DNA of 64,000 bases from assembly GCA_902603555.1 (NCBI GenBank), contig CACKVD010000003.1:1-64000 (forward strand), written 5' to 3'. Shown here in pieces: positions 33,326 to 62,443 of this stretch. Position 1 is the stretch's first letter. Every line of letters starts with the position of its first letter. The notes below the pieces were generated by a model. That model made no database searches. It worked only from the letters and a program-made list of their open reading frames with translations, and was not told where the DNA came from. The position numbers were made by a program, and so were the translations under genes. The stretch is from an uncultured Pelagibacteraceae bacterium (GTDB taxonomy: Bacteria; Pseudomonadota; Alphaproteobacteria; Pelagibacterales; Pelagibacteraceae).

Positions 33326-34012
33326 ATGAATGAACTAGATAAACACTTTGAGCCAAAAAATTTAAGTGACAAGGTTGCATTAGGATTTACTAAATTTCTA
33401 AGGCTTTTAGCTGATACCTTTTTCAAAAAGAGATATGGTCATAGAGCAGTTGTACTTGAGACAGTTGCTGCAGTACCAGGCATGGTTGCTGGAATGTTAA
33501 TACATTTAAAATCGTTAAGAAAAATTGAAGATGATAGAGGATGGATTAAAACTTTATTAGAAGAGGCTGAAAATGAGAGAATGCATTTAATGACATTTAT
33601 TCATATAGCTAAGCCCACAGCTATCGAAAGATTTATAATAATGATTGCTCAATTTATATTTATATTTACTTATGGTTTAATTTATTTGCTATCTCAAAGA
33701 ACAGCTCATAGAATTGTTGGATACTTTGAGGAAGAAGCAGTTGTAAGTTATACAGAATATTTAAACGAACTTGAGGCTGGAACAGTACCTGATCAACCAG
33801 CACCAGAAATTGCAATTAATTATTGGAATTTACCATTACATGCTACATTAAAAGATGTGGTAAGAGTGATAAGAGATGATGAAGCTGGTCACAGAGATGT
33901 AAATCATACTTTTGCCGATTTAATTAATTTGAAGAAAACAAAAGAGGTGATTAATAAAAAAGATAAACTTAAGGAAGAAAATAAAAAAGATATTTTAAAT
34001 CAATTAAAATAA
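33326..34012 (+). CDS. aox: alternative oxidase (cyanide-insensitive ubiquinol oxidase)
   Basis: 228-aa diiron membrane-associated quinol oxidase that reduces oxygen to water without proton pumping. All four ligand motifs are intact: [33 protein letters not shown] and [16 protein letters not shown]. The interfacial hydrophobic helix [20 protein letters not shown] anchors it to the membrane. No mitochondrial-like N-terminal extension. Flanked by LysE and, convergently, fhs; overlap with fhs is 9 bases. Confidence 0.94.
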
Positions 34013-35686
34013 ACCTTCTATCTCACCTTTTTTATTAAGCTTAATAGAGTCTGCTGCTGGAACTCTTGGTAATCCTGGCATAGTCATTATTTCTCCACAA
34101 ACAACAACTATGAACTCTGCGCCTGAAGACAATCTTACTTCTCTAACTGGTAACACGTGTCCTGTTGGTGCACCTTTTAAACTTGGATCAGTTGAAAAAC
34201 TATATTGAGTTTTAGCAATACAGACTGGAAGCTTTCCAAAACCTTTTTCTTCAAAATCTTTTAATTGTTGCCTAATTTTTGTATCAGCAACCACTTCACT
34301 TGCATGATAAATTTCTTGAGCTATTTTTTCAATTTTTTTAAATAGAGGTAAGTTATCTTCATATAAATATTTAAATGTATTTTTTTTATCTTCACAAATT
34401 TCAGCAACGTTTTTTGCTAACTCTTTAGTGCCCTCACTTCCGTTAGACCAGTGAGTACATTTTGATGCTTTAACACCTTGTGTTTTACAAAAATCAAGCA
34501 AAGTTTTCATTTCTTTATCTGTATCTGTGATAAAATGATTTACTGCTATAGTAACTGGTAAACCAAATTTTCTAGTATTATTTATATGTCTTTCTAAATT
34601 TACCAGTCCTTTTTTTAATGCATTAACATTTTCATTTTTTAACTCATCTTTAGATACTCCTCCATGCATTTTTAAAGCTCTTATGGTAGCAACAATGACT
34701 ACACAATCTGGTTTAATTCCTGATTTTCTACACTTTATATTTAAAAATTTTTCAGCACCAAGATCTGCACCAAAACCGGCCTCTGTAACAACATAGTCAG
34801 CCAATTTAAGACCTGCTCTAGTTGCAATCACAGAATTACATCCATGAGCAATATTTGCAAAAGGCCCACCATGAATTATTGCTGGATTATTTTCAAGAGT
34901 TTGTGTGATGTTAGGTCTAATAGCCTCCTTTAATAAAACAGTCATCGGGCCTTGTGCATTTAAATCTTTTGCACATATAGCTTTTTTATCTCGAGTGTAA
35001 CCAACTGTAATGTTTCCTATTCTATTTTCTAAATCTTTTAGATCAGTAGCTAAGCAGAAGATAGCCATAATTTCTGATGCTACAGTTATATCAAAACCAT
35101 CTTGTCTTGGATATCCGTTAGCAACTCCGCCAAGATCAACTATAATTGATCTTAAAGATCTGTCATTCATATCCATAACTCTCTTCCAAACAATTCTTCT
35201 TACATCAATATTAAGTTTGTTACCCCAATAAATATGATTATCAATTAAAGCTGATAACAAATTATGTGCAGAAGTTATTGCATGAAAATCTCCTGTGAAA
35301 TGTAAATTTATTTGTTCCATTGGTACAACCTGAGCATAACCACCTCCTGCAGCACCACCTTTCATACCAAATGAAGGACCAAGACTTGGCTCTCTTAAAC
35401 ACACAATCGATTTTTTTCCTATTTTATTTAATCCATCATTTAAACCAACAGAAGTAGTTGTTTTACCCTCTCCAGCAGGAGTCGGTGTAATTGCTGTAAC
35501 TAGAATTAAATTTCCATCATCTTTTTTAAGTGACTCTAGGTACTCTAAATTTATCTTAGCAATATGTCTGCCCATAGGACTAAAAGCTGAACTTTCATCA
35601 GGCACATTTATTTTAGCCAATATATCTTTAATTGGTTGCATTTTTGCTTCTCTTGCTATTTGGATATCTGATTTTACATCGCTCAT
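34004..35686 (-). CDS. fhs: formate-tetrahydrofolate ligase
   Basis: 560-aa monofunctional enzyme interconverting formyl-THF plus ADP/Pi and formate plus ATP plus THF. P-loop [16 protein letters not shown], then [26 protein letters not shown] and [14 protein letters not shown] are family hallmarks; C-terminal [11 protein letters not shown] is complete. In C1-oxidising organisms it runs in the ATP-making direction. It lies divergent from soxBDAG, whose action supplies methylene-THF. Confidence 0.96.
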
Positions 35687-35811: not shown

Positions 35812-37068
35812 ATGCAAAAATACTCTATTTTCAATCTAGTGAAAAATGCATTTTCAAATCATGAAAATTGGGATTTAGCCTGGAAAGATCCTACGCCAAA
35901 GAAAGAATATGATGTGGTTATTATTGGAGGGGGTGGCCATGGTTTAGCAACTGCTTACTATTTAGCAAAAGAACATAATATTACAAATGTTGCAATTATA
36001 GAGAAAGGCTGGATAGGTGGAGGAAATGTTGGTCGCAACACCACTATAATAAGATCAAATTACATGCACGATGATAATGCTCTTTTCAGTGAATTTGGAA
36101 TGGATCTATGGAGAAAGATGAGTCAGGATTTAAATTATAATGTGATGTTTTCTCCAAGAGGAATTATTAACCTTGCACATTCAGATGCTCAAATGAATGT
36201 TTATGCAAGGAGAGGTAACTCAATGAGATTGAATGGAATTGATGCAGTCTTATTAAATAGAGAAGAAGTAAAAGAAATTATTCCAATGGCAGACTTTACA
36301 GAAAATGTGAGGTTTCCAATTTTTGGAGGTTTAATGCAACCGAGTGCAGGAACAGCAAGACATGATGCTGTAGCTTGGGGTTATGCTCGTCAGGCAGATT
36401 CTATGGGGGTAGATATAATTCAAAATTGTGAAGTAATAGGATTTGATGTATCAGGTGGAAAAATAAAAGGAGTAAGAACTTCTCGTGGAGATATTAAAGC
36501 AAAAAAAATTGGTTTATGTGTTGCAGGCAGTACAAATATTTTAGCTGAAAAATTAAATATGACACTGCCTATTGAAACACATCTTTTACAAGCCTGTGTT
36601 TCTGAACCAGTTAAACCAGTCTTAGATAGAGTAGTTACTTTTGGAGCAGGACATTTTTATATAAGTCAATCTGATAAAGGCGAAATGGTTATGGGTGGAG
36701 ATTTAGATGGCTATAATAGTTATGCACAAAGAGGAAATTTACCAACACTTCAACACGTTTTGACAGAAGGTATAGCAATGATGCCTTTTCTTAGTAAATT
36801 AAAGATGCTTAGAACTTGGGGCGGGATAATGGATATGTCGATGGATGGTTCACCTATTATAGATAAAACACATATTGAAGGTTTATATTTGAATTGTGGT
36901 TGGTGTTATGGTGGATTTAAAGCAACCCCAGCATCTGGTTGGACTTTTGCACATACAATTGCGCAAGATCGAGTTCATGAATTAAACGCAGGATATAGTT
37001 TAAATAGATTTAATACAGGTCACTTACTTGATGAAAAGGGACTTGGTACAAAAACCTGGATTTCATAA
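35812..37068 (+). CDS. soxB: sarcosine oxidase subunit beta
   Basis: 418-aa flavoprotein subunit of heterotetrameric sarcosine oxidase, which demethylates sarcosine to glycine with methylene-THF formation. FAD-binding motif VVIIGGGGHGLATAYYLAKE; FMN-linking histidine is likely H184 in TARHDAVAW. C-terminal GWCYGGFKATPASGW is family-typical. First gene of soxBDAG; the stop is immediately followed by soxD. Confidence 0.95.
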   Translation: MQKYSIFNLVKNAFSNHENWDLAWKDPTPKKEYDVVIIGGGGHGLATAYYLAKEHNITNVAIIEKGWIGGGNVGRNTTIIRSNYMHDDNALFSEFGMDLWRKMSQDLNYNVMFSPRGIINLAHSDAQMNVYARRGNSMRLNGIDAVLLNREEVKEIIPMADFTENVRFPIFGGLMQPSAGTARHDAVAWGYARQADSMGVDIIQNCEVIGFDVSGGKIKGVRTSRGDIKAKKIGLCVAGSTNILAEKLNMTLPIETHLLQACVSEPVKPVLDRVVTFGAGHFYISQSDKGEMVMGGDLDGYNSYAQRGNLPTLQHVLTEGIAMMPFLSKLKMLRTWGGIMDMSMDGSPIIDKTHIEGLYLNCGWCYGGFKATPASGWTFAHTIAQDRVHELNAGYSLNRFNTGHLLDEKGLGTKTWIS

Positions 37069-37338
37069 ATGCTTCATATTAAATGTCCACACTGTGGAAT
37101 GAGATCTCAAAATGAATTTTCTTATGGAGGAGATGCTAGCATCAAAAGACCTGAATTAGGTAAAGAAATATCTGATCAAGACTGGGATAATTTTGTTTAT
37201 AATAGAAAAAGTTTAAGAGGAAAACATTGGGAGTTGTGGCAACATATATCTGGTTGTCGACAATGGATCAAAGTTGAAAGAGATACTTCAACTCATGAAA
37301 TTTTTAATACCCTTAAAGCTAATGAGGATATTTCATAA
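37069..37338 (+). CDS. soxD: sarcosine oxidase subunit delta
   Basis: 89-aa zinc subunit. Ligands visible: CPHCG at the N-terminus, with a later HISGCRQW; EFSYGG and HWELWQHISGCRQWIKVERDTSTHEI are diagnostic of SoxD. Overlaps soxA by one base. Confidence 0.95.
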   Translation: MLHIKCPHCGMRSQNEFSYGGDASIKRPELGKEISDQDWDNFVYNRKSLRGKHWELWQHISGCRQWIKVERDTSTHEIFNTLKANEDIS

Positions 37339-40334
37339 TGACTCAAAGCTTTAGATTAGAAAATGTTGGATTAATAAACAGAGACAAAAAGCTTTCATTT
37401 AAATTTAATGGCAAGACTTACTATGGATTTGAAGGGGATACTTTAGCATCAGCATTAATAGCAAATGGAGTTCATTTGGTGGGAAGAAGTTTTAAGTATC
37501 ATAGACCAAGAGGATTCTTTGGAGCAGGTGTCGATGAACCTTATGCAATTGTTCAACTGTATAGGAATGGAGAAACTGAGCCAAATATTAAAGCTACAGA
37601 ACAAGAACTTTTTGAGGGATTAGAGGCAACGAGTGTAAATTGTTGGCCAAATGTTAATTTTGATATTGGAGCAATAAACAATTTTCTGAAAATTTTTCTT
37701 CCAGCTGGGTTTTATTACAAAACTTTTATGTGGCCAAAAAGCTTCTGGTTTAAAGTTTATGAGCCATTTATTAGAAAAGCAGCAGGACTTGGAGTTGCAT
37801 CTATTAAGCATGATAAAGAAAGATACGAACATAAATACGAATATTGTGATTTATTGATTACTGGCTCAGGTCCATCGGGCTTAGCAAGCGCATATGCTGC
37901 AGCAAAGAATGGAGCAAGAGTAATTTTAGCTGAAGATAAATCAAGATTTGGTGGAACTTTACTTACAAGTGAAGTTAATATTGGAAATAAATCAGGTAAA
38001 GAATGGGCTGAAGGAATTATTGCTGAGTTAAGAGAAATGCCCAACGTCACAGTAAAAAATAGATCACAGGTTTTTGGTTATTATGATCATAACATGCTAG
38101 TAATGTCTGAAAGAATTAGTGATCATTTGCCAAAAACAAAAAAATTTCATCCAAAGCAAAGACTTTGGTATATCAGAGCAAAAGAAGTTTTAATTTCATC
38201 AGGATCAATTGAAAGACCAATAGTATTTGGAAACAATGATACACCTGGTGTAATGCTTTCATCAGCTGCAAAAGAATACTTAAAAGTTTATGGAGTGTTA
38301 GTAGGAAAAAATCCTTTAATTTTCACTAACAATGATAGTGGTTACGAAACCGCAATTGAATTTAAAAAAAATGGTGTAGATCCAGTGATTTTGGATACTA
38401 GAAAAGATCCTCGATCTGAAATAGTCGATGAAGCAAAAAATTTAGGAATAAATATTAAGTTTTCTTATGTAGTTGTAGCCGCCCATGGTTATAAAAAAGT
38501 AAAATCAGCTGATATTGCTAAAATCTCAGATGATAAAGAAAAACTTGGAGTAGTAGAAAACATTAGATGCGATTGCATATGTGTTTCTGGTTTTTGGACA
38601 CCTACAATTCATCTAGCTTCACAATCAGGAAATAAAACAAAATTTAATGAAGATATTGACGCTTTTGTTCCAGGAATATCAAAACAAAATGAAACAACAT
38701 TAGGTGCTGCAAATGGATCTTATACTTTAAATGAAACATTAAAAAGTTCTTTTAAAACAGGTCATGAATTATCAAAAAAGATTACAAATAAAGATAATGA
38801 AATTTCTTTTCCAAATGTTATTGAAAAAAAATCAACATCACACGATAAGTTTTGGTGCGTACCATTACCTCAGGGAAAAAATTATAAAAGATTTTTAGAT
38901 TTTCAAAATGATGTTGCTGTTTCCGATATCGAGATAGCTCTTAAAGAAGGTTACAGATCTATTGAACACGTAAAAAGATATACAACTCTTGGAATGGCAA
39001 CAGATCAAGGTAAAACAAGTAATCTTAATGGTTTACAATTAGTTTCTAAAATAGAGAACAAGGTAGTACCAAATGTTGGTCATACTACTTTTAGACCACC
39101 CTATACTCCAGTTTCTATTGGTGCAATTGTTGGAAGAGAAGTTGGAAAATATTCAAAACCAACCAGAAAATCTCCAATGCATTCATGGCATGAAAAAAAT
39201 AATGCAGTATTTGTTGATGCAGGAGTCTGGTTAAGACCTAGATATTACAAACAAGGAAACGAAAATTTATTTGAAGCATCAAAAAGAGAGGCGAAAAATG
39301 TAAGGACCAATGTGGGTGTTTGTGATGTAACTACATTAGGTAAAATAGATATTAAAGGACCAGATGCAGCGAAGTTGCTTAATAGAGTTTATACAAATGC
39401 ATGGCTAAAGTTACCAATTGGTAAGGCAAGATATGGCGTGATGTTAAGAGAAGATGGAATTGTTATGGATGATGGAACAACCACAAGAATCTCTGAAAAT
39501 CATTACCATATGACAACTACCACTGCACAAGCAGCAAACATACTTTCTCATTTAGAATATTATTTACAGTTAGTATGGCCAGAGCTAAATGTAAATGTAG
39601 TTTCAACTACGGAACAATGGGCAGGAGCAGCTATTGCTGGACCAAGATCAAGAGATTTATTACAAAAACTCTTTCCAAATTCAGATGTATCAAATGAAGG
39701 CCTTCCTTTTATGGGTTACATGGAAGGAGATTTGTTTGGTGTAAGTGCAAGAATTTTCAGAATTTCATTTTCTGGAGAGCTTGCATACGAAGTAAATGTA
39801 GAGTCTGATAATGGAAATTTTATGTGGGAAAAAATTATTGAAGCTGGTCAAGAATTTAAAATTCAACCTTACGGTACAGAAGCTTTATCAACTCTTAGAA
39901 TTGAAATGGGACATGTCGCAGGATCAGAGCTTGATGGAAGAACAATTCCTTATGATAATTCTCTTGAAGGATTGTTGAGTAAAAAGAAAGACTTCATAGG
40001 AAAAAGATCTTTAATTAGAAAAGCATTTACAGCTGAAGATAGACAAAAAGTTGTTGGAGTAGTTCCTTTAGATAAAAAAACAAGTATTCCAGAGGGATCC
40101 CATTTAGTAAAAGACTCAAATGCACCGTTACCAAATCCAAAATTAGGTTATATTTCTGCCTCGTGTTGGAGTGTTGAGCATGACAATCCATTTTCTTTAG
40201 CCATTCTTAAGGATGGAAAAAATATGATTGGAGAAAAATTATTTGTAATGTCTCCACTTAAAAATAAAGTTATTCCAGTTGAGATAGTTTCTTCACATTA
40301 TGTTGATCCAAAAGGTGAAAGGGTTAGATCATGA
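37338..40334 (+). CDS. soxA: sarcosine oxidase subunit alpha
   Basis: 998-aa multidomain subunit. In order: an N-terminal 2Fe-2S-like/Fer2_4 domain without the cysteines (FKFNGKTYYGFEGDTLASALIANG), a pyridine-nucleotide-disulfide-type domain (DLLITGSGPSGLASAYAAAK), and a C-terminal GcvT-like THF-binding region from about residue 620 (SPMHSWHEKNNAVFVDAGVW to HYVDPKGER). It contributes NAD+ and folate sites to the SoxBDAG channelled complex. Four-base overlap with soxG. Confidence 0.95.
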   Translation: MTQSFRLENVGLINRDKKLSFKFNGKTYYGFEGDTLASALIANGVHLVGRSFKYHRPRGFFGAGVDEPYAIVQLYRNGETEPNIKATEQELFEGLEATSVNCWPNVNFDIGAINNFLKIFLPAGFYYKTFMWPKSFWFKVYEPFIRKAAGLGVASIKHDKERYEHKYEYCDLLITGSGPSGLASAYAAAKNGARVILAEDKSRFGGTLLTSEVNIGNKSGKEWAEGIIAELREMPNVTVKNRSQVFGYYDHNMLVMSERISDHLPKTKKFHPKQRLWYIRAKEVLISSGSIERPIVFGNNDTPGVMLSSAAKEYLKVYGVLVGKNPLIFTNNDSGYETAIEFKKNGVDPVILDTRKDPRSEIVDEAKNLGINIKFSYVVVAAHGYKKVKSADIAKISDDKEKLGVVENIRCDCICVSGFWTPTIHLASQSGNKTKFNEDIDAFVPGISKQNETTLGAANGSYTLNETLKSSFKTGHELSKKITNKDNEISFPNVIEKKSTSHDKFWCVPLPQGKNYKRFLDFQNDVAVSDIEIALKEGYRSIEHVKRYTTLGMATDQGKTSNLNGLQLVSKIENKVVPNVGHTTFRPPYTPVSIGAIVGREVGKYSKPTRKSPMHSWHEKNNAVFVDAGVWLRPRYYKQGNENLFEASKREAKNVRTNVGVCDVTTLGKIDIKGPDAAKLLNRVYTNAWLKLPIGKARYGVMLREDGIVMDDGTTTRISENHYHMTTTTAQAANILSHLEYYLQLVWPELNVNVVSTTEQWAGAAIAGPRSRDLLQKLFPNSDVSNEGLPFMGYMEGDLFGVSARIFRISFSGELAYEVNVESDNGNFMWEKIIEAGQEFKIQPYGTEALSTLRIEMGHVAGSELDGRTIPYDNSLEGLLSKKKDFIGKRSLIRKAFTAEDRQKVVGVVPLDKKTSIPEGSHLVKDSNAPLPNPKLGYISASCWSVEHDNPFSLAILKDGKNMIGEKLFVMSPLKNKVIPVEIVSSHYVDPKGERVRS

Positions 40335-50031: not shown

Positions 50032-51390
50032 TTAGCCTTTTACAACTTCTCTTGTATTAGCATTGAAAGACTCTTTAAATGGTATATCCACTACTACAGC
50101 ATCTACAGGTTCACCTGCTTTATCTGAGTATTTCTCAGGCAAATGAATTTTATATTTAGTTCCAACTTTTCCTTTTGGAAATCCGTTTGAGTTCAGAGTT
50201 CCATCAAATGGCACATATCCCATTGCTATATTTGTTTTTTTTTCAGGATGGTACCAAGGTGATGTAATAAAACCTATTGGATCCCCACCATCAGCTCCTG
50301 AAATTAACCAAAAATCAGGTGCATAATCTTCAATTGGTTTTCCCCCTAATTCAAGACCGACTAACTGAAGTTTATATGGTTTTTTACCCTCTTTGAGCTC
50401 TTTACCCATTTTTTCTAAAGCAGCTTTACCAACATAATCAGCTTTTTTATTCCATTCTCCTTTACCCGAAAGTGAAACCTGATAACCTAAATTACATTGA
50501 AAAGGATTATGCTGTTGATCCATGTCCTGACCCCATGAAAGAATTCCAGCTTGAATTCTTCTATGGTGCGCTGGAGCAATAACCATAAGTTGATGTTTTT
50601 TTCCAGCTTCAAGAACTGCATTCCACATATCTTCCGCATATAGAGTAGCATTTCTTAAATAAATTTCATACCCAGCTTCACCTGAGAAACCAGATTGAGA
50701 TATAACACAGCTTCTTCCCCCAACTTTTACTTCTGCTAAACCATAAAAAGGCATGTTATCAAAATCAACTTGATCTCCACATAAATCTTTCATTAAAGCT
50801 TTTGATTTAGGTCCTTGTATTTGCACAGGACACGCATCAATTTCTTCAACTGTACAATTAAATCTTCCATCAGCATTAACACCTTGAAGATACATACCTA
50901 TATCCGAGTCTGATAAAGAAAACCAAAACTCATCTTTTGAAATTCTTAAAAGAATTGGATCATTTAAAACTCCACCATAAGTATTACATAAAATTACATA
51001 TCTAGCTCTCATAGGGGAAATTTTAGTTGCATCTCTTGTTATTACATAATCTGTGAATTTTTCTGCATCTGGACCTTTAACTCTTATTTGTCTTTCAACA
51101 GCAACGTTCCACATTGTAACATGATTGACAATAGCATCATATTCTACCATTGCTCCACCGTCTTCAGGTTTTACATAACCTCTTGGATGATAAATACGAT
51201 TGTAAACAGTTGCTCTCCAACAACCAGCTTGCATTGATAAATGCCAATAAGGTGACTTTCTTACCCTTGTTGAAATTAACATCTCAACCTTTGTTGGCCC
51301 ACTTTGTCTTAAATTATATGGTACTTCTCGATCTGATTGATCAACTGAAGTAACATGTTTTAGTTTAGTATAGTCAAATTCTTTAGACAT
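50032..51390 (-). CDS. DmdA/GcvT-family THF-dependent methyltransferase
   Basis: 452 aa from the second ATG (MSKEFDYTKL); AGGAG stands 8 bases before it but only 2 before the ORF-track ATG. GcvT fold: VERQIRVKGPDAEKFTDYVITRD, YVILCNTYGGVLNDPILLRI, SDSDIGMYLQGV, CPVQIQGPKSKALM, SQSGFSGEAGYEIYL, and a C-terminal beta domain. These blocks resemble DMSP demethylase DmdA more than glycine-cleavage T protein, but the protein is roughly 80 residues longer than DmdA. Probably transfers a methyl group from a sulfonium, ammonium or methoxy donor to THF. Overlaps metF-like by 8 bases. Confidence 0.8.
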   Translation of the reverse strand: MSKEFDYTKLKHVTSVDQSDREVPYNLRQSGPTKVEMLISTRVRKSPYWHLSMQAGCWRATVYNRIYHPRGYVKPEDGGAMVEYDAIVNHVTMWNVAVERQIRVKGPDAEKFTDYVITRDATKISPMRARYVILCNTYGGVLNDPILLRISKDEFWFSLSDSDIGMYLQGVNADGRFNCTVEEIDACPVQIQGPKSKALMKDLCGDQVDFDNMPFYGLAEVKVGGRSCVISQSGFSGEAGYEIYLRNATLYAEDMWNAVLEAGKKHQLMVIAPAHHRRIQAGILSWGQDMDQQHNPFQCNLGYQVSLSGKGEWNKKADYVGKAALEKMGKELKEGKKPYKLQLVGLELGGKPIEDYAPDFWLISGADGGDPIGFITSPWYHPEKKTNIAMGYVPFDGTLNSNGFPKGKVGTKYKIHLPEKYSDKAGEPVDAVVVDIPFKESFNANTREVVKG

Positions 51391-52156
51391 AACCATTCTC
51401 CTTCAACCACTTGTTAGTTTCCTTCAAGCCGCCGAATGTATAAATGTGGAAGAAATCAGTATGCGATTTAACTTTCCCAATTAAATCATTAGGGTCTTTA
51501 GGTTTTAATAAATCTAACGCCTTACTAAAATTAGACTTAAGAAAATTAATGGAATTTTTTGCTCCAACAATATTAGCAAATTTAATTAAGCTAGATATTT
51601 TTAGAGGCCCAGTAATTCCCACATGCACTGGTATGCTTTGTTTAGATATAAAATCTATAATAGGCTGGGGATCCAGTAACCATTGAGTTACTATATAATC
51701 AGCATAAGGCTTTTTATCTATCATAGCTTTTTCTAAATCTGAGTCGGATATATCAGGACTCCCCTCAGGGTGTCCAGCAATTCCTATTATCATCTTCTCA
51801 AAATAACCAGTCTCTAAAAGTTGAAACGAGCTATCAAATTTTCCAACTGGCTCTCTACCGCCGCCAATGATTAAGACTTGTTTTACACCCCCGTCTTTAC
51901 ATCTAGAGACATAATCTTTAAGCTCTTCTTCATTATGCATTGATCTTGCAGGAAAATGAGGGACAGGGTTAAAACCTTTTTTAACAAGTTCAATAGCTTT
52001 TTGAGCTGTTTCTTTATAATCTCCACCAGGTAACATAGTTATATACACATCATTTACTGGTGGTACCGTTTCTAGATCTGTATTAGGCCCAATTTCTAAC
52101 GAAAATTTCATTTTCAGATCATTATCTTTTTTGAAAAAGCTGTCAAAGAAATTCAA
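51383..52156 (-). CDS. MetF-family methylenetetrahydrofolate reductase-like protein
   Basis: 257 aa from a TTG start at 52156 preceded by GGGGG; this gives LNFFDSFFKKDNDLKMKFSLEIGP, an N-terminus fitting related short MetF proteins. An ATG at 52111 is the alternative. TIM-barrel motifs: FSLEIGPNTD (conserved Glu), GFNPVPHFPARS, IGIAGHPEGSPD, VTQWLLDPQPIIDF, HVGITGPLKI. It likely oxidises methyl-THF made by the DmdA-like enzyme translated next (8-base overlap). Confidence 0.82.
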   Translation of the reverse strand: MNFFDSFFKKDNDLKMKFSLEIGPNTDLETVPPVNDVYITMLPGGDYKETAQKAIELVKKGFNPVPHFPARSMHNEEELKDYVSRCKDGGVKQVLIIGGGREPVGKFDSSFQLLETGYFEKMIIGIAGHPEGSPDISDSDLEKAMIDKKPYADYIVTQWLLDPQPIIDFISKQSIPVHVGITGPLKISSLIKFANIVGAKNSINFLKSNFSKALDLLKPKDPNDLIGKVKSHTDFFHIYTFGGLKETNKWLKENGYV

Positions 52157-52198
52157 CAATTGACCCCCAACTGATAATTGTTGCCAAAAACGGTGCTC

Positions 52199-53407
52199 AT
52201 GATAATTTTTTTTGTGGACCAAAATTACAAAAATAAAAACCTATCTGAAATCCTAGATATTGAAAAAATAGAGGCTGTTAAGAAGTCAATAGAGATAGCA
52301 AATGGCCTTCCAAATGAATGCTACACGAGTGAGGACTATTTAATTTATGAAAAAAAGAGAATTTTTTGGGATAAATGGACAGTCGTTGGAGTTGGAAGTT
52401 CGATACCAAACCCAGGAGATGCCAAGCCATACAATTTATTGGGGATTCCCTTAATTTTAATTAGAGGGAAAGATATGCGGATCCGAGTTTTTCACAACGT
52501 TTGTAGTCACAGAGGATTTAAACTTTTGGACAAAACCTGTAATTTAAAAAATGTAATCAGATGTCCTTATCATTCTTGGTCATACGACTTTGAAGGAAAT
52601 TTAGTCGCAACACCTCATATTGGTGGACTAAACAAACACCACTCAGAAAAATTTGATAAAATCAAAAGTAATTTAAAAGAGGTTAAAACTAAAGTTTGGA
52701 TGGATATCATTTTTATAAATATTAATTCTAATGAAATTGAATTTGATGAATACATAAAACCTCTTGAACAAAGATGGTCAAAATTCATTAATAAAAATGA
52801 TCAAGAATTGATAGTGCATTCTAACGACTATGGTTATTTTAATTTAGATGTAAATTGTAATTGGAAATTTGCTATAGAAAATTATTGTGAAAGTTATCAT
52901 CTGCCAACTATTCATCCTGAATTAAATAAAGTTTCTAACATTAATGATCATTATCATATCCAAGGTTTACCGAACAGATTTGCTGGACAAGGAAGTAAAA
53001 AATATGAACAACCTGTTAAAGGAAATAAAAAATTTAATACTTTTCCAAACTGGGAAAAAAATATGTTAAAAAATTCTGAATACATCGCGTTATTTCCTAA
53101 TGTAATGATTGGTCTACATGTTGATCATTTTTATGTTTTTTGGTTAGAGCCACTTACCGTAAGTAAAACAAAAGAACATATGCAGATGTATTATGTTGGA
53201 AATCATAGTGCTAATGGAGAAGAGTTAAAAGATTTAAGAAAAGAAAACGCAAGGTTTTGGAAAGACGTTATGTCAGAGGATGTTAATGCAATTGAAGGAA
53301 TGCAAGGGGGAAGAAGCTCTCCAGTTTATAATGGGGGAAATTTTTCACCTGTAATGGATCAACCAACACACCAATTTCATAAGTGGGTAGCTAATAGTTT
53401 AATGTAA
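52199..53407 (+). CDS. Rieske non-heme iron oxygenase, betaine-demethylase-like (GbcA type)
   Basis: 402 aa from the first ATG (MIIFFVDQNY); the track start is an upstream TTG without SD. Rieske ligands C102-x-H104 (CSHRGF) and C122-xx-H125 (CPYHSW). Mononuclear iron site ENYCESYHLPTIHPEL, with a late acidic ligand region DVNAIEGMQGG. Most like oxygenases that N-demethylate glycine betaine, stachydrine or carnitine-type substrates. No GbcB-like reductase is adjacent. Divergent from metF with only about 40 bases between starts. Confidence 0.87.
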   Translation: MIIFFVDQNYKNKNLSEILDIEKIEAVKKSIEIANGLPNECYTSEDYLIYEKKRIFWDKWTVVGVGSSIPNPGDAKPYNLLGIPLILIRGKDMRIRVFHNVCSHRGFKLLDKTCNLKNVIRCPYHSWSYDFEGNLVATPHIGGLNKHHSEKFDKIKSNLKEVKTKVWMDIIFININSNEIEFDEYIKPLEQRWSKFINKNDQELIVHSNDYGYFNLDVNCNWKFAIENYCESYHLPTIHPELNKVSNINDHYHIQGLPNRFAGQGSKKYEQPVKGNKKFNTFPNWEKNMLKNSEYIALFPNVMIGLHVDHFYVFWLEPLTVSKTKEHMQMYYVGNHSANGEELKDLRKENARFWKDVMSEDVNAIEGMQGGRSSPVYNGGNFSPVMDQPTHQFHKWVANSLM

Positions 53408-53408
53408 T

Positions 53409-53816
53409 ATGAAAATAATTCTTATAATGGGTTTACCAGGGTCAGGCAAAACAACTTTAGCAAATGAATTGGGTCCGATGTTAAATGCTAAAAGATTGAA
53501 TGCAGATGAAGTAAGAAAAGAAGCTAACGATTGGGATTTTTCTGAAGAAGGTAGAAAAAGACAAGCTAAAAGAATGGCAGACTTTGCTATTAAATTAAAA
53601 AATGAGGGAAATTATGTTGTTGCTGATTTTATTTGTCCAACACCTGAGGCAAGAAGTTTATTTCCTGCAGATTTTATTATTTGGGTTGATACAATTAAAA
53701 AAGGTAGATTTGATGATACGAATAAAATGTTTGTAAAACCAGATAAGTATGACTTTCATGTTACTACTCAAGATGCTAAAAACTGGGCACCAAAAATATT
53801 AAAGGAGATAAAATAA
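53409..53816 (+). CDS. APS-kinase-like P-loop kinase (135 aa)
   Basis: Small P-loop protein: Walker A GLPGSGKTTLANEL, NADEVRKEANDWDFSEEGRKRQAKRMADFA (APS-kinase-like substrate helix), VVADFICPTPEARSLF, and FIIWVDTIKKGRFDDTNKMF. Much shorter than CysC (about 200 aa) and without neighbouring sulfate-assimilation genes, so classical APS kinase activity is uncertain. Overlaps the nucleotidyltransferase-like gene by one base. Confidence 0.78.
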   Translation: MKIILIMGLPGSGKTTLANELGPMLNAKRLNADEVRKEANDWDFSEEGRKRQAKRMADFAIKLKNEGNYVVADFICPTPEARSLFPADFIIWVDTIKKGRFDDTNKMFVKPDKYDFHVTTQDAKNWAPKILKEIK

Positions 53817-54190
53817 TGACTTATAAATGGGATAATAAAAAACCAACAGCACAAATGTTAGGAAGATGGCAACCGTTTCACGATGGTCATTATAATTTAT
53901 TCAAAGAAATTATAAAAAAAACAGGTCAGGTTTGTATTCAGATTAGAGACGTTCAGGGAGTGGATGACAATCCATTTGATTTTGAGACAGTAAAAAAAAA
54001 TATTGAAGAGAGATTGAACCCAGAGTTTGAGGGGCATTTCAAGATTATGATGGTGCCAAATATTACCAATATTTGTTATGGTAGAGGTGTGGGTTATAAA
54101 ATTGAAGAAATTGAACTTTCTAAAGAAATTCAAGAAATTTCAGCTACTAAAATAAGAGCAAAAATGAGAGAAGAGGGTAAACTTAAATAA
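53816..54190 (+). CDS. nucleotidyltransferase (cytidylyltransferase-like)
   Basis: 124-aa protein of the HxGH superfamily: GRWQPFHDGHYNLFKEI carries the HDGH nucleotide-binding motif and the C-terminal EISATKIRAKMREEG is the ISSTxIR-like motif. NMNAT/CTP-transferase-like enzymes condense a phospho-compound with NTP. Paired with the preceding kinase, it could activate an unknown small molecule as a nucleotide conjugate. Ten bases before an enoyl-CoA hydratase-like gene. Confidence 0.78.
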   Translation: MTYKWDNKKPTAQMLGRWQPFHDGHYNLFKEIIKKTGQVCIQIRDVQGVDDNPFDFETVKKNIEERLNPEFEGHFKIMMVPNITNICYGRGVGYKIEEIELSKEIQEISATKIRAKMREEGKLK

Positions 54191-56665: not shown

Positions 56666-59098
56666 ATGAAATCAAAAACAAAAGTAGTTGTTGTTGGAGG
56701 TGGTGTTGTTGGAGTTAGTGCACTATATCACCTAGCAAAAAAAGGTTGGTCAAATGTAGTTCTTGTTGAAAGAAAAGAATTAACTTCTGGTTCAACTTGG
56801 CACGCAGCAGGATTATTACCATTGTTTAATATGAGTTATTCTGTTGGACAACTTCATAAATATGCAGTTGATCTTTATAAAAAGTTAGAGGAAGAAACAG
56901 GAAAAAATGTTGGTTTCAGTGTAGTTTCAAATATTCGTTTAGCTTCCACCAAAGATAGGATGGATGAGTATCATCAATATGCCGGTGTAGCTAAAACAAT
57001 TGGTGTTGATGTGAAGTTTTTAACACCTCAACAAGTAAAAGAAATTTGGCCTTTATGTCATACTGACGATTTAGTCGGTGCTATTCAGCATCCTGAGGAT
57101 GGTTATATTCAACCAGCAGACCTAACCCAAGCACTTGCAACAGGTGCTAGAAATATGGGGGCAGAAATTTATCGAAACACAACTGTCGTAGCTATGAAAC
57201 AAACTAAAGATGGTTGGATTGTAGAGACAGACAAAGGATCTATTGAGTGTGAGCATATAATTTCTTGCTCCGGAAATTTCGCAAGACAAACTGGAGAAAT
57301 GGTTGGATTAGATATACCTGTTATACCAGTTGAACACCAATATATTGTTACTGAACCGCATCCAGAAATTCAAAAAAGAAAAAAAGATGGTCTTCCAGAA
57401 ATGGGAGTTCTTAGAGATAGTGATAGCAGATGGTACATGAGGGAAGAAGCTGGAGGATTAATTTTAGGCCCTTATGAAGATGGTGCTCCGGCCTGTTATG
57501 TAGAAGGTCCGTCAAAAAATTCTGAGTACGAACTATTTCAAGAAGATCTAGATAGACTTGCACCCCATATTGAAGGAGCAATACATAGAGTACCTGCCTT
57601 TGGTGAAGTAGGTGTGAAAAAAGTTTACAATGGTGCAATTTGTTATACTCCAGATGGAAATCCAATTGTAGGTCCAGCATGGGGATTAAAAAACTTTTGG
57701 ATAAACGAGGGTCATAGTTTTGGAATTACAGCTGCTGGAGGAGCTGGTTGGCAATTAGCAGAATGGATAGTTGATGGAGAACCAACAATAGATATGCTCG
57801 GTGTTGAACCTAGACGTTATGGAAATTATGCAACTAAATCTTATTTAAAAGCTAAAAATGAGGAGGCATATAGCCATGTTTTTATAACTCACTATCCTGA
57901 TGAAGAAAGACCTGCTGCAAGACCTTTAAGAACTTCACCGTGTTATGAAAGAATGAAAGATCTAGGTGCTGTATTTGGTCAAAAGTTTGGTTGGGAAAGA
58001 CCAAATTTTTTTGCAACGGATGGAATGGAGCAAAAAGATGATTGGTCTTTTAGAAGATCTAAATGGTTTGATGCAATTAAAAAAGAATGTCAGAATGTAA
58101 AAGAAAATGTTGGTCTTTTAGATATGACAGCGTTTGCAAAATGTAGAATTAAAGGACCAAAAGCAGAAGAGTTTCTAGATTACTTGGTAGCAAATAAATT
58201 GCCAAAAAAAATTGGAAGAATTGGATTATGTCACGCACTTAATACAAAAGGCGGTGTTCACTCAGAGTTTACAATTATGAAGGAGGCTGAAAATAGTTAT
58301 TATTTAGTTTCTGCTGGAGCCAATTTAAGACTTGATCATGACTGGATTCAAAAATGGATGCCAACTGATGGATCAGTAATATTTGAAGATTTAACAAACA
58401 GCACAGGTGTACTTGTAATAGCAGGGCCAAAAGCAAGAGAATTAATGCAAAAAGTTTCTACAGATGATTTTTCGAATGAAAACTTTAAATGGCTAACCGC
58501 AAAGAATGTTAATGTAGGATATGCGCCAGTAAACGCAATGAGAGTAAATTTTGTTGGTGAACTTGGATGGGAATTACATCATCCAATTGAATACCAAAAC
58601 CATATTTTTGATAAATTAATGGATGTAGGAAAAGATTTGGGAATAAAACCTTTTGGAATAAGAGCAATGAATAGTTTAAGAGTTGAAAAATCTTATAAAC
58701 TTGTGGGAACAGAATTATCAATAGAATATTCACCCTATGAATCTGGTTTAGATAGATTTATTCATCCAAATAAAGGAAATTTTATAGGGCTTGAAGCTCT
58801 AAACAAATGGAGGGAAAAAGGTTTTGAAAATAAATTAGTAACACTCGAAGTTCACAACACCACGGATTCAGATGTGTTGGGAAATAATCCCATATATAAA
58901 GACGACAAAGTTGTTGGAAGAGCAACAGGTGGTGAGTATGGATTTAGATTAGATAAATCAATTGCTTTAGCAATGGTAAAACCTGATTTAGCTAATGTAG
59001 GTGAGAAACTTAAAGTTGATATATTGGGCAAAATGTATGAGGCTACAATTTTAGAAGAAAGTCCATACGATGTTGAAAATAAATTATTGAGAGCTTAA
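56666..59098 (+). CDS. dmgdh: dimethylglycine dehydrogenase (FAD + GcvT domains)
   Basis: 810-aa enzyme that N-demethylates dimethylglycine to sarcosine. An FAD domain ([21 protein letters not shown]) with the covalent-flavin region [11 protein letters not shown] fills the first ~370 residues, an FAO_M linker follows, and GcvT N and C domains occupy ~430-805 ([47 protein letters not shown]). Electrons go to ETF, encoded directly downstream (one-base overlap). A sarcosine dehydrogenase identity is possible, but SoxBDAG already covers that step. Confidence 0.88.
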
Positions 59099-59847
59099 TG
59101 AAAATTCTCGTCGCAGTAAAAAGAGTAATAGATTATAATGTTCAAATTAGAGTAAAAGAAGATGGATCAGGTATTGTTACTGATAATGTTAAAATGTCAA
59201 CAAACCCACCTGATGATAACGCAATTGAAGAAGCAGTAAAAATTAAAGAGTCTGGAAAAGCAACCGAAGTAGTAGCAATTTCAGTAGGGGAAGAAAAGGC
59301 TCAAGAAACAGTTCGAAAAGCATTAGCTGTTGGAGCTGATAGAGGAATATTGGTCAAAGCAGAAGGTACCGTAGAGCCACTAGCTGTTTCAAAAATTTTA
59401 CAGAAAATTGTTGAAAAAGAAAAACCTGATTTAGTATTTATGGGTAAGCAAGCTATCGACGATGATTGTAATCAAACTGGACAAATGCTAGCAGCATTAT
59501 TGAATTGGCCTCAAGCTACATTCGCATCAAAAATCGAAGTTAAAGAAAAATCTTTAGAAGTGACAAGAGAAATCGACGAAGGTCTTGAGACTATTGAGGT
59601 AAATGTTCCAGCAATAGTAACGTGTGATTTAAGATTAAATGAGCCAAGATATGCTTCTTTACCTAATATAATGAAAGCAAAAAAAAAACCAATCGAGCAA
59701 ATAAATGCTTCTGATTTAGGTATTGATACAAAACCAAGAATTGATCAAATAAAAGTTGAAGAACCTCCTAAGAGAAAAGCAGGGATTAAAGTCGCAAGTG
59801 TAGAAGAATTGGTTCAAAAATTGAAAAATGAGGCTAAAGTAATATAA
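59098..59847 (+). CDS. etfB: electron transfer flavoprotein subunit beta
   Basis: 249-aa AMP-binding ETF subunit. Seen: [58 protein letters not shown], and [32 protein letters not shown]. Overlaps DMGDH and etfA by one base each, implying ETF is the direct acceptor of DMGDH electrons. Confidence 0.96.
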
Positions 59848-60800
59848 TGTCAATTTTATTAATAGCAGAGCATAATAATAAAGAAGTAAAACCTTTTACT
59901 TTAAATGCAATTTCTGCGGCATCTCAAATAAGCGAAGATTTAAATGTTTTAGTATTAGGTTCTAATTCAGACACTGTTGCGAAATCTATTTCTGAATGTC
60001 CTAATGTAAAAAAAGTAATACATATCAATAATGAGCTTTATGAAAATTATTTAGCTGAAAATTATTCATCAGCTATCATTAAACTTTCGAAAAGCTATTC
60101 ACACATTATCTGTTCAGCAAATACTTTTGGTAAGAATCTTATGCCAAGAATTGCCGCTTTATTAGATGTTTCACAAGTTAGCGACATCACAAAAGTTGTT
60201 TCTGAGGATACTTTTATAAGACCAATATATGCAGGAAATGCATTTGCAACAGTAAAAAGTAATGACAAAATTAAATGTGTAACAATAAGACCTACTTCAT
60301 TTGATCCAGCGCCATCATCAGGAGGTTCTGCTGAAATTCAAAATGGTGAACCTGGTGACTCAACAGAGTTGTCTAAGTTTATAAAAAAAGAGGAAATTAA
60401 ATCAGATAGACCTGAATTGGGTACAGCTAGAGTTGTAGTTTCAGGGGGAAGAGGAATGCAGAGTGGAGAGAATTTTAAATTAATAACTGCAGTTGCAGAT
60501 AAATTAAATGCTGCAATAGGAGCATCTAGAGCAGCAGTGGATGCAGGCTATATTACCAATGATCATCAAGTTGGTCAGACGGGTAAAGTGGTAGTTCCTG
60601 ATTTATATATTGCTGTAGGAATTTCTGGAGCAATTCAGCACTTAGCTGGAATGAAAGAGAGCAAAGTGATTGTCGCAATTAATAAAGATGGTGAGGCGCC
60701 AATTTTTAGTGTCGCTGATTATGGTTTAGAAGCAGATCTTTTTGACGCTTTACCTAAGTTCTTAGAGGAATTGAACAAATTAAACACTATACAAAAATAA
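59847..60800 (+). CDS. etfA: electron transfer flavoprotein subunit alpha
   Basis: 317-aa FAD subunit of ETF. FAD domain motifs VVSGGRGMQSGENF, GASRAAVDAGYITNDHQVGQTGKVV, YIAVGISGAIQHLAGM and AINKDGEAPIFSVADYG are intact. Pairs with EtfB to carry electrons to ETF-QO encoded 23 bases downstream. Confidence 0.96.
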   Translation: MSILLIAEHNNKEVKPFTLNAISAASQISEDLNVLVLGSNSDTVAKSISECPNVKKVIHINNELYENYLAENYSSAIIKLSKSYSHIICSANTFGKNLMPRIAALLDVSQVSDITKVVSEDTFIRPIYAGNAFATVKSNDKIKCVTIRPTSFDPAPSSGGSAEIQNGEPGDSTELSKFIKKEEIKSDRPELGTARVVVSGGRGMQSGENFKLITAVADKLNAAIGASRAAVDAGYITNDHQVGQTGKVVVPDLYIAVGISGAIQHLAGMKESKVIVAINKDGEAPIFSVADYGLEADLFDALPKFLEELNKLNTIQK

Positions 60801-60823: not shown

Positions 60824-62443
60824 ATGTCCAGAGAGACAATGGAATATGATGTTGTTATTGTAGGTGGTGGCCCCTCAGGTTTATCTACTGCTATTAAATT
60901 GAAACAATTAGACTCAAATTTAAATGTTTGTTTATTAGAAAAAGCATCTGAGATTGGTGCTCATATTCTAAGTGGGAATGTTTTTGAAACAAGAGCTTTA
61001 GATGAATTAATCCCTAATTGGAAAGAATTAAATTCTCCAATTAAAACAAAAGTTAGTAAAGAAAAATTTTTATTCTTAAGTAAATCAAAGTCACTTAGTT
61101 GGCCAACATGGCTATTACCCTCTGTTCAACAAAATCATAATAATTATATTATTAGCTTAGCTAACTTGTGTAGGTGGCTTGCAGAACAAGCTGAGACACT
61201 TGGAGTTGAAATTTTTCCAGGATTTCCAGCAAGCGAAATTTTATATAATGAAGATGGTTCAGTTAGAGGTGTTGCTACTCAAGATATGGGTATCGATAAA
61301 GAAGGTAATAAAAAAGACAGTTTTGAACCTGGCATTGAGCTTTTAGGAAAAGTGACTGTATTTGCAGAAGGATGCAGAGGACATTTAGGTAAACAACTTA
61401 TTCGAAAGTTTGAATTAGATAAAGGAAAAGATCCTCAACAATATGGGATTGGTTTTAAAGAAATATGGGAAGTTGATGAAAAAAATTATGAGGAAGGGCT
61501 AGTAATGCATACGGCTGGATGGCCTTTAGACAATAACACTTATGGTGGTAGTTTTATGTACCACGCTGAAAATAAACAAGTTTTTTTAGGATATGTAATT
61601 GGTTTAGATTACAAGAATCCTCATTTATCTCCTTTTGATGAATTTCAAAGATTCAAAACCCACCCAGCTATAAAAAAAATAATTGAAGGTGGAAAAAGAA
61701 TTTCTTATGGTGCAAGAGCTTTAATTGAAGGTGGCTATCAAAGTTTACCGAAAATGTTTATGCCAGGAGCACTTCTTATTGGATGTGATGCTGGAACACT
61801 TAATATGCCAAAAATTAAAGGTTCACATACTGCAATGAAAAGTGGAATTATTGCTGCAGAAACTATCAATGAACATCTTAATTTTCAAAAAGACTTATCT
61901 ACATTTGAAGAAAAATTTAAAAATAGTTGGCTCTATGACGAACTATTTAAAGCAAGAAATGTAAAACCAAGTTTTAGTTGGGGCTTAATTTTAGGAATTA
62001 TTTTTACTGGAATAGATCAAATTTTATTTAGAGGTAAATTACCTTTTACCCTCAAACATAAACATGCAGATCATGAAACTTTAAAACCAGCAAATGAAAT
62101 GCCAAAAATTGAATATCCAAAACCAGACAATATAATTACATTTGATAAAACAAGTTCAGTTTATTTAACAGGAACAAATCATACTGATAATCAACCAGTT
62201 CATTTACAATTAAAAGATCCAAATTTACCAATTAGTTATACGTTAGATAAATTTGATGAACCAGCACAGAGATATTGTCCAGCTGGAGTATATGAAATTC
62301 AAAAGGAAAATAATGTTAATAAATTTGTGATTAATTCACAAAATTGTATTCATTGTAAAACTTGTGATATAAAAGAACCTTCACAAAACATTAATTGGGT
62401 CACTCCTGAAGGTGGTGGTGGACCAAAATATGGAAATATGTAA
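60824..62443 (+). CDS. etfD: electron transfer flavoprotein-ubiquinone oxidoreductase
   Basis: 539-aa inner-membrane-associated enzyme passing electrons from ETF to ubiquinone. FAD motif VVIVGGGPSGLSTAIKL; C-terminal 4Fe-4S ligands CPAGVYEI and CIHCKTCDIKEPSQNINWVTPEGGGGPKY. A moderately hydrophobic segment (FSWGLILGIIFTGIDQILF) fits the monotopic membrane helix. Completes the DMGDH-ETF-quinone chain. Its stop abuts the DUF2237 stop. Confidence 0.95.
   Translation: MSRETMEYDVVIVGGGPSGLSTAIKLKQLDSNLNVCLLEKASEIGAHILSGNVFETRALDELIPNWKELNSPIKTKVSKEKFLFLSKSKSLSWPTWLLPSVQQNHNNYIISLANLCRWLAEQAETLGVEIFPGFPASEILYNEDGSVRGVATQDMGIDKEGNKKDSFEPGIELLGKVTVFAEGCRGHLGKQLIRKFELDKGKDPQQYGIGFKEIWEVDEKNYEEGLVMHTAGWPLDNNTYGGSFMYHAENKQVFLGYVIGLDYKNPHLSPFDEFQRFKTHPAIKKIIEGGKRISYGARALIEGGYQSLPKMFMPGALLIGCDAGTLNMPKIKGSHTAMKSGIIAAETINEHLNFQKDLSTFEEKFKNSWLYDELFKARNVKPSFSWGLILGIIFTGIDQILFRGKLPFTLKHKHADHETLKPANEMPKIEYPKPDNIITFDKTSSVYLTGTNHTDNQPVHLQLKDPNLPISYTLDKFDEPAQRYCPAGVYEIQKENNVNKFVINSQNCIHCKTCDIKEPSQNINWVTPEGGGGPKYGNM

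Follow-up and report, generated by a model that had tools for sequence, protein, structure and literature searches.

A glycine betaine demethylation module proposed for SAR11, other Proteobacteria and haloarchaea, built on a sister family of DmdA

The first 64,000 nucleotides of contig CACKVD010000003.1 (the window), from a Pelagibacteraceae (SAR11) genome assembly (GCA_902603555.1; 937,704 bp in 37 contigs, 72% complete), carry a short operon that encodes a relative of the dimethylsulfoniopropionate (DMSP) demethylase DmdA and a MetF-like reductase. We propose that the DmdA-like enzyme is, with fair probability, a cobalamin-independent glycine betaine (GBT):tetrahydrofolate (THF) methyltransferase, its substrate and its reaction both being predictions. 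The 2 genes of the operon, which share 8 or 14 nt according to the start chosen, are as follows.

50032..51396, minus strand: DmdA-like protein of the GCV_T family, 454 aa, or 452 aa if translation begins at the second ATG; ortholog of SAR11_1265 and proposed GBT:THF methyltransferase

51383..52111, minus strand: MetF-like methylene-THF reductase, 242 aa from the ATG at 52111, ortholog of SAR11_1264; proposed to oxidize 5-methyl-THF (5-CH3-THF)

In this proposal, the DmdA-like enzyme would transfer a methyl group from the quaternary ammonium of GBT to N5 of THF, yielding dimethylglycine and 5-methyl-THF, and the co-encoded MetF would oxidize the latter to 5,10-methylene-THF, which could proceed to CO2 via FolD, Fhs, and formate dehydrogenase or enter biosynthesis. 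Dimethylglycine would pass to a nearby dimethylglycine dehydrogenase (DMGDH), acting with electron transfer flavoprotein (ETF), and then through sarcosine oxidase to glycine. The proposal draws on features visible in the sequences themselves: the fold family, the conserved folate and catalytic positions, a separate clade, the operon structure, recurrent gene neighbors, and the finding that half of the near-complete genomes carrying the operon appear to lack the other GBT demethylases known.

The window protein belongs to the GCV_T family (PF01571, 136.8 bits against a gathering threshold of 25.6) and among solved structures it matches Pelagibacter DmdA best (3tfh, E = 2.9e-41), but it scores 227.4 bits on the NCBIfam DmdA model (NF009133), whose cut-off is 410, and 2 of its orthologs fall below that value as well (247.8 and 269.9 bits). 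Models for other members of the superfamily fit no better, with scores between 35 and 148 bits that are all far under their cut-offs: GcvT (TIGR00528, 126 against 235.85), the aryl O-demethylases LigM and DesA (35.4 and 41.4 against 580 and 800), and the two-domain trimethylamine N-oxide demethylase (NF053776, 142.8 against 1100), which also forms a separate clade in the tree. The LigM score rules out aryl demethylation of the LigM type. In a careful IQ-TREE analysis of 71 sequences, the window protein and its relatives form their own clade with support of 99/97, and in a quick tree of 91 sequences the sister group of this clade is DmdA together with its paralogs. Orthologs found in a search of 385 alphaproteobacteria are 64-95% identical, except for one at 51%, and no other hit exceeds 41% identity. 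Because the score falls so far short of the DmdA cut-off and the clade is its own, the sequence evidence indicates that the enzyme is not DmdA sensu stricto. The first-pass annotation of this DNA had taken the same view, and the tree does not place the protein inside a characterized clade.

Four folate and catalytic positions shared with DmdA are invariant (Y133/Y95, S160/S122, E244/E204, and Y246/Y206 in clade/DmdA numbering), as expected for THF-dependent methyl transfer. The presumed DMSP-contact position, on the other hand, is Phe237 in 32 of 32 clade members, where the DmdA set has Trp or Tyr; in P. ubique DmdA this residue is W197, which from its spacing we take to be the W171 of the literature. 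W171 is given as the DMSP-contact residue of DmdA by Hernandez et al. 2020 (PMC7487153). The clade is further marked by Q234, A/Q282, and Q300 where other groups have Arg, Glu, and Glu/Asp, respectively (R194 to Q234, E241 to A/Q282, and E259 to Q300). Such replacements at positions conserved elsewhere might suit a betaine-making methyltransferase that depends on 5-methyl-THF, or a non-enzymatic, folate-binding paralog with a regulatory role, but we find either scarcely credible: the folate-site residues are kept, 88 of the 96 genomes sampled from the window's genus retain the gene, and the neighbors are catabolic (GbdR, Fhs, formate dehydrogenase, serine dehydratase, and DMGDH). An AlphaFold model built from a shallow, SAR11-only alignment had a pLDDT of 40.9 and was discarded. 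Compared with DmdA of Ca. Pelagibacter ubique, then, the enzyme shares the fold family and presumably the redox-neutral transfer of a methyl group from an onium carboxylate to THF, but it is longer, is at most 41% identical over the regions that match, and keeps other gene neighbors. A further DmdA-type paralog was seen at another locus (L007 1153-2307; G000:C3, ~79.5-80.6 kb); it scores 396.7 bits against the DmdA cut-off of 410, belongs to a well-supported paralog clade, and has Trp at the presumed DMSP position.

The MetF-like protein passes the Pfam MTHFR threshold narrowly (PF02219, 25.1 bits against 24) and stays far below that of NCBIfam TIGR00676 (24.3 against 293.7 bits). Its nearest solved relative is the MTHFR 7xg9 (1.3e-32), which is presumably S6MTHFR of Sphingobium lignivorans SYK-6. 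The closest solved relative is thus probably a reductase described as oxidizing methyl-THF, in keeping with the first-pass suggestion of a partner able to do so. In SYK-6, S6MTHFR is the partner of LigM and oxidizes 5-CH3-THF (PMC12585457). The pairing of LigM, a GcvT-derived and THF-dependent demethylase, with an MTHFR running in reverse resembles what we propose here, although LigM acts on aryl methoxy substrates. In its own genome, the MetF-like protein is the only MTHFR detected, within an incomplete assembly. SAR11 are without MetE and MetH (PMC12478193), so 5-methyl-THF has no methionine-synthase sink in these organisms and an oxidative role is the sensible one for MetF. From this we infer that MetF runs in the direction from 5-CH3-THF to methylene-THF.

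Gene neighborhoods point to GBT as the substrate. Orthologs of the DmdA-like enzyme occur in 125 of 198 sampled Pelagibacteraceae, including (by our own count) 88 of 96 in the window's genus, as well as in other alphaproteobacterial families, other Proteobacteria, and haloarchaeal megaplasmids, where identity is 50-57%; one of these orthologs is on a megaplasmid of Haloarcula hispanica (NC_015944.1 226368-227675). We compared matched neighborhoods of ~9 kb on each side, some contigs being shorter, for 20 proteobacterial loci outside SAR11, 7 haloarchaeal loci, and 20 loci of true DmdA. DMGDH or sarcosine oxidase genes lie near 12 of the 20 proteobacterial and 5 of the 7 haloarchaeal orthologs, against 0 of 20 true DmdA loci. 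Since loci of one genus are not independent, a count by family is safer, and by our tally 6 of 14 proteobacterial families show such neighbors. MTHFR genes are found near 7/20, 6/7, and 1/20 of the same 3 sets. The haloarchaeal loci hold, in varying combinations, MTHFR, FolD, Fhs, formate dehydrogenase, serine hydroxymethyltransferase (SHMT), Ser/Thr dehydratase, 2 DMGDH-type oxidoreductases, and a BCCT transporter, with folate-synthesis genes also present. In one proteobacterial genus (G442, G502, and G535), the enzyme, MetF, and Fhs are accompanied by an L-serine dehydratase, a DMGDH-type gene, and a regulator scoring above the GbdR cut-off (500.8 against 480 bits). The enzyme therefore sits in a neighborhood of GBT catabolism in unrelated lineages, as would be looked for in a GBT:THF methyltransferase.

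Within SAR11, we surveyed 80 related loci, of which 76 were informative, and grouped them ourselves by their neighbors; the MetF/DmdA-like pair itself is constant across them. In 36 of the 76, an OpuAC-family binding protein and/or permease directly precedes MetF in the same orientation, with 59-77 bp between the end of the permease gene and MetF, and most of these 36 have a betaine-homocysteine methyltransferase (BHMT)-family gene (best PDB match human BHMT, 1.2e-43) and a second DMGDH-type gene close by. At 2 such loci (L036 637-5808 and L059 502-5808), bhmT is clustered with genes for a second DMGDH-type protein of 801 aa, a SAM-methyltransferase-like protein, and a creatinase-like M24 peptidase, and this cluster diverges from the run of OpuAC, permease, MetF, and DmdA-like genes.

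If the enzyme instead demethylated a compound of the DMSP pathway, whether methylmercaptopropionate (MMPA), DMSP itself, or another sulfonium such as dimethylsulfonioacetate, this would fit its nearest characterized family being DmdA, and DMSP may also be cargo of the betaine-type transporters. Sun et al. 2011 proposed removal of DMSP's second methyl, from MMPA (PMC3160333). We nevertheless consider this unlikely: none of the 20 true DmdA loci compared has the DMGDH or sarcosine oxidase neighbors, the haloarchaeal and GbdR-linked clusters are glycine, serine, and one-carbon clusters, the presumed DMSP-contact Trp/Tyr is an invariant Phe, DmdA is already present in the genus, and MMPA, a thioether, is a poor methyl donor. 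Among nitrogen compounds, dimethylglycine and sarcosine are amines and not onium compounds, so that GBT is the sole plausible methyl-cation donor of the dimethylglycine/sarcosine pathway, an argument from chemistry and not a test. Demethylation of a different betaine or quaternary amine (proline betaine, carnitine, choline, beta-alanine betaine, or homarine), likewise with THF as acceptor, would also be compatible with BCCT and OpuAC transporters and DMGDH-like oxidoreductases, which serve other betaines too, and many loci do not name a substrate. GbdR, SHMT, serine dehydratase, and the BHMT neighbor point, however, to a pathway that ends in glycine, and we regard this alternative as improbable. 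A separate lead on homarine catabolism was dropped as unsupported by the literature found.

The GBT assignment would also fill a gap in the genomes that carry the operon. We searched 22 carrier genomes, 20 of them at least 90% complete, for the known GBT demethylases; carriers only were counted, so this is an argument from a missing step and not a tested anti-correlation. MttB-family genes were detected in 3 of the 22, GbcA above its cut-off in 1, and BHMT in 9, and a DMGDH ortholog at E <= 1e-150 was present in 18. In 10 of the 20 near-complete carriers (G207, G297, G161, G120, G258, G075, G286, G442, G502, and G535), BHMT, the MttB family, and GbcA above cut-off were all undetected; G364, with an MttB fragment at the end of a contig, was for that reason not included. 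No GbcA-family match whatever at E <= 1e-20 was found in G161, G502, or G535. Near-complete SAR11 genomes G207 and G297, in which no BHMT was detected, both keep the operon and DMGDH. Cobalamin-dependent MtgBC(D) achieves the same overall conversion as proposed here, GBT to dimethylglycine with the methyl passed on to THF, but uses an MttB-family protein and a corrinoid protein, and the MttB family is absent from 19 of the 22 carriers. BHMT (of the SAR11_1173 type), encoded beside the operon in many SAR11, also demethylates GBT, but with homocysteine as the acceptor.

Several observations weigh against GBT as the substrate, or against this enzyme as the demethylase. We know of no precedent for direct, corrinoid-free transfer of a methyl group from a quaternary ammonium to THF. 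No DMGDH or sarcosine oxidase gene lies within ~9 kb on either side in 8 of the 14 proteobacterial families. The SAR11 OpuAC protein has as its best PDB match the glycine betaine/proline-type binding protein 7yle, and transporters of this kind can carry DMSP too; 7yle is itself presumably a DMSP-binding protein. Several carriers have BHMT or MttB-family genes in addition to the operon, and in G207 and G297 the adjacent Rieske protein remains a candidate for the demethylation. Finally, BHMT is the accepted route in SAR11, and the only one that a 2025 study assigns to these bacteria (PMC12478193).

This Rieske gene is divergent from the operon in the window.

52112..52198, no strand: 87-bp intergenic region separating the divergent MetF and Rieske genes

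52199..53407, plus strand: Rieske non-haem iron oxygenase alpha subunit of CntA/GbcA type, assigned on motifs and best PDB match 6y9c; not conserved with the operon

The initial open reading frame (ORF) calls were 50032-51396 (minus) for the DmdA-like gene, 51383-52222 (minus) for MetF, and 52178-53407 (plus) for the Rieske gene, and the mechanical TTG starts of the last 2 overlap each other. All 3 ORFs are real, apart from corrections to their starts: MetF begins at ATG 52111, giving 242 aa as in its relatives, and the Rieske gene at ATG 52199. With these conserved ATG starts in place of TTG, the gap becomes 87 bp rather than the promoter region of ~40 bases given in the first-pass annotation. 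At Rfam gathering thresholds, no riboswitch was found in the window stretch or in 4 related loci, and the 87-bp region had no Rfam match.

The Rieske cluster and iron motifs are intact (CSHR / CPYHSW / ENYCESYHLPTIH; CxH...CxxH and E-x2-H-x4-H), as expected of an alpha subunit, and the nearest solved match is the carnitine monooxygenase CntA (6y9c, 2.1e-36). The protein thus shares the motifs of GbcA/CntA monooxygenases but differs from GbcA itself, scoring 115.9 bits on NF058607 against a cut-off of 670. The first-pass annotation had argued from the shared promoter that oxygenase and methyltransferase are 2 co-regulated routes for the same or related osmolytes. While the genes are divergent and close in the window, adjacent in 31 of the 76 informative SAR11 loci (with the Rieske gene and MetF side by side), and the Rieske gene adjoins bhmT in other SAR11, it is lost from the site in 9 of the 76, with the next conserved gene following and the operon kept, is separated in others, and gives way to the betaine-type transporter in the 36 loci described above. 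Outside SAR11, no relative of it was detected beside orthologs of the enzyme. With the GbcA cut-off also missed, we think 2 co-regulated routes very unlikely; the census rules out the Rieske gene as a marker of the operon's substrate, and the Rieske partner is incidental to the operon. The earlier interpretation was therefore sound in part: the DmdA relative, its MetF partner, and a plausible new substrate survive, while the argument from the promoter and the Rieske gene does not.

On Haloarcula marismortui plasmid pNG700 (L139 17028-18167), a ring-hydroxylating oxygenase alpha subunit lies between 2 DMGDH-type genes; it is nearest CntA (3.6e-42) and 26% identical to the SAR11 Rieske protein, an identity that does not help the case for 2 routes. 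In the window, 2 small genes (53409-54190) follow the Rieske gene nearly without a gap, encoding an APS-kinase-like P-loop protein and a nucleotidyltransferase-like protein. Many SAR11 loci retain the pair, including loci that have lost the Rieske gene, and in other loci the APS-kinase-like gene also adjoins an M24 peptidase.

Other genes of the window would supply later steps of the proposed pathway.

34004..35686, minus strand: formate-THF ligase (Fhs), a later step of THF-linked methyl oxidation (Pfam FTHFS, 890 bits)

35812..40334, plus strand: SoxB-like (35812-37068) and SoxA (37338-40334), of the heterotetrameric sarcosine oxidase / N-methylglutamate dehydrogenase type (Pfam DAO; SO_alpha_A3 and GCV_T)

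56666..59098, plus strand: FAD oxidoreductase plus GCV_T protein, a DMGDH candidate, probably SAR11_1253 (Pfam DAO, FAO_M, GCV_T, GCV_T_C)

59098..60800, plus strand: EtfB and EtfA, electron acceptor pair 3' of the DMGDH candidate, named by sequence resemblance and position

60824..62443, plus strand: ETF-ubiquinone oxidoreductase (ETF-QO; Pfam Fer4_ETF_QO, ETFQO_UQ-bd)

The family of the DMGDH candidate is a recurrent neighbor of the clade, adjoining orthologs in L119 and L128-L132, and the order DMGDH-EtfB-EtfA is repeated in L119. From 34004 to 62443, the window forms a one-carbon and methylamine region in which Fhs, SoxB, SoxA, MetF, the DmdA-like gene, the DMGDH candidate, EtfBA, and ETF-QO lie within 28 kb. 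An alternative oxidase (33326-34012; Pfam AOX, 279 bits) is beside Fhs.

The operon is already in the literature; what is new is that GBT is assigned as the substrate from gene contexts of unrelated lineages, and that the Rieske link is demoted. For SAR11_1264/SAR11_1265 of Ca. P. ubique HTCC1062, Sun et al. 2011 (PMC3160333) noted the resemblance to DmdA and the adjacent metF, proposed an oxidative MetF, and guessed at MMPA demethylation where we propose GBT; the word Rieske is absent from that paper. The same work reports that HTCC1062 oxidizes GBT methyl groups to CO2 (PMC3160333). Smith et al. 2016 (PMC5069961), in work on sulfur limitation, list large and parallel falls in the mRNA of both genes, to ~0.1-0.2 of the control level. 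SAR11_1265 was otherwise unnamed in the open-licence literature that we searched, and later characterization elsewhere is possible.

Even odds seem right for the wider claim that a DmdA-sister family provides SAR11, other Proteobacteria, and haloarchaea with a further GBT demethylation route that requires no cobalamin, oxygen, or homocysteine, and that this is a main entry of GBT carbon in SAR11 without BHMT. Glycine betaine is among the most abundant marine osmolytes, and to our knowledge the route by which marine aerobic bacteria take off its first methyl group has so far been unsettled. Each betaine processed by BHMT yields one methionine, and the enzyme is poorly suited to the burning of betaine as fuel. 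The operon is present in 88 of the 96 sampled genomes of the genus, including near-complete ones in which no BHMT was detected. In haloarchaea, dimethylglycine oxidases and BCCT transporters were noticed and possible betaine use was suggested by Anderson et al. 2011 (PMC3102087), and the module proposed here would explain how some of them could use betaine, by supplying the step then left open. If the proposal is correct, a B12-independent step of betaine oxidation in the most abundant marine heterotrophs has gone under the name "aminomethyltransferase" since 2011, and betaine turnover would be undercounted wherever metatranscriptomes are interpreted from bhmT, mtgC, and gbcA alone.

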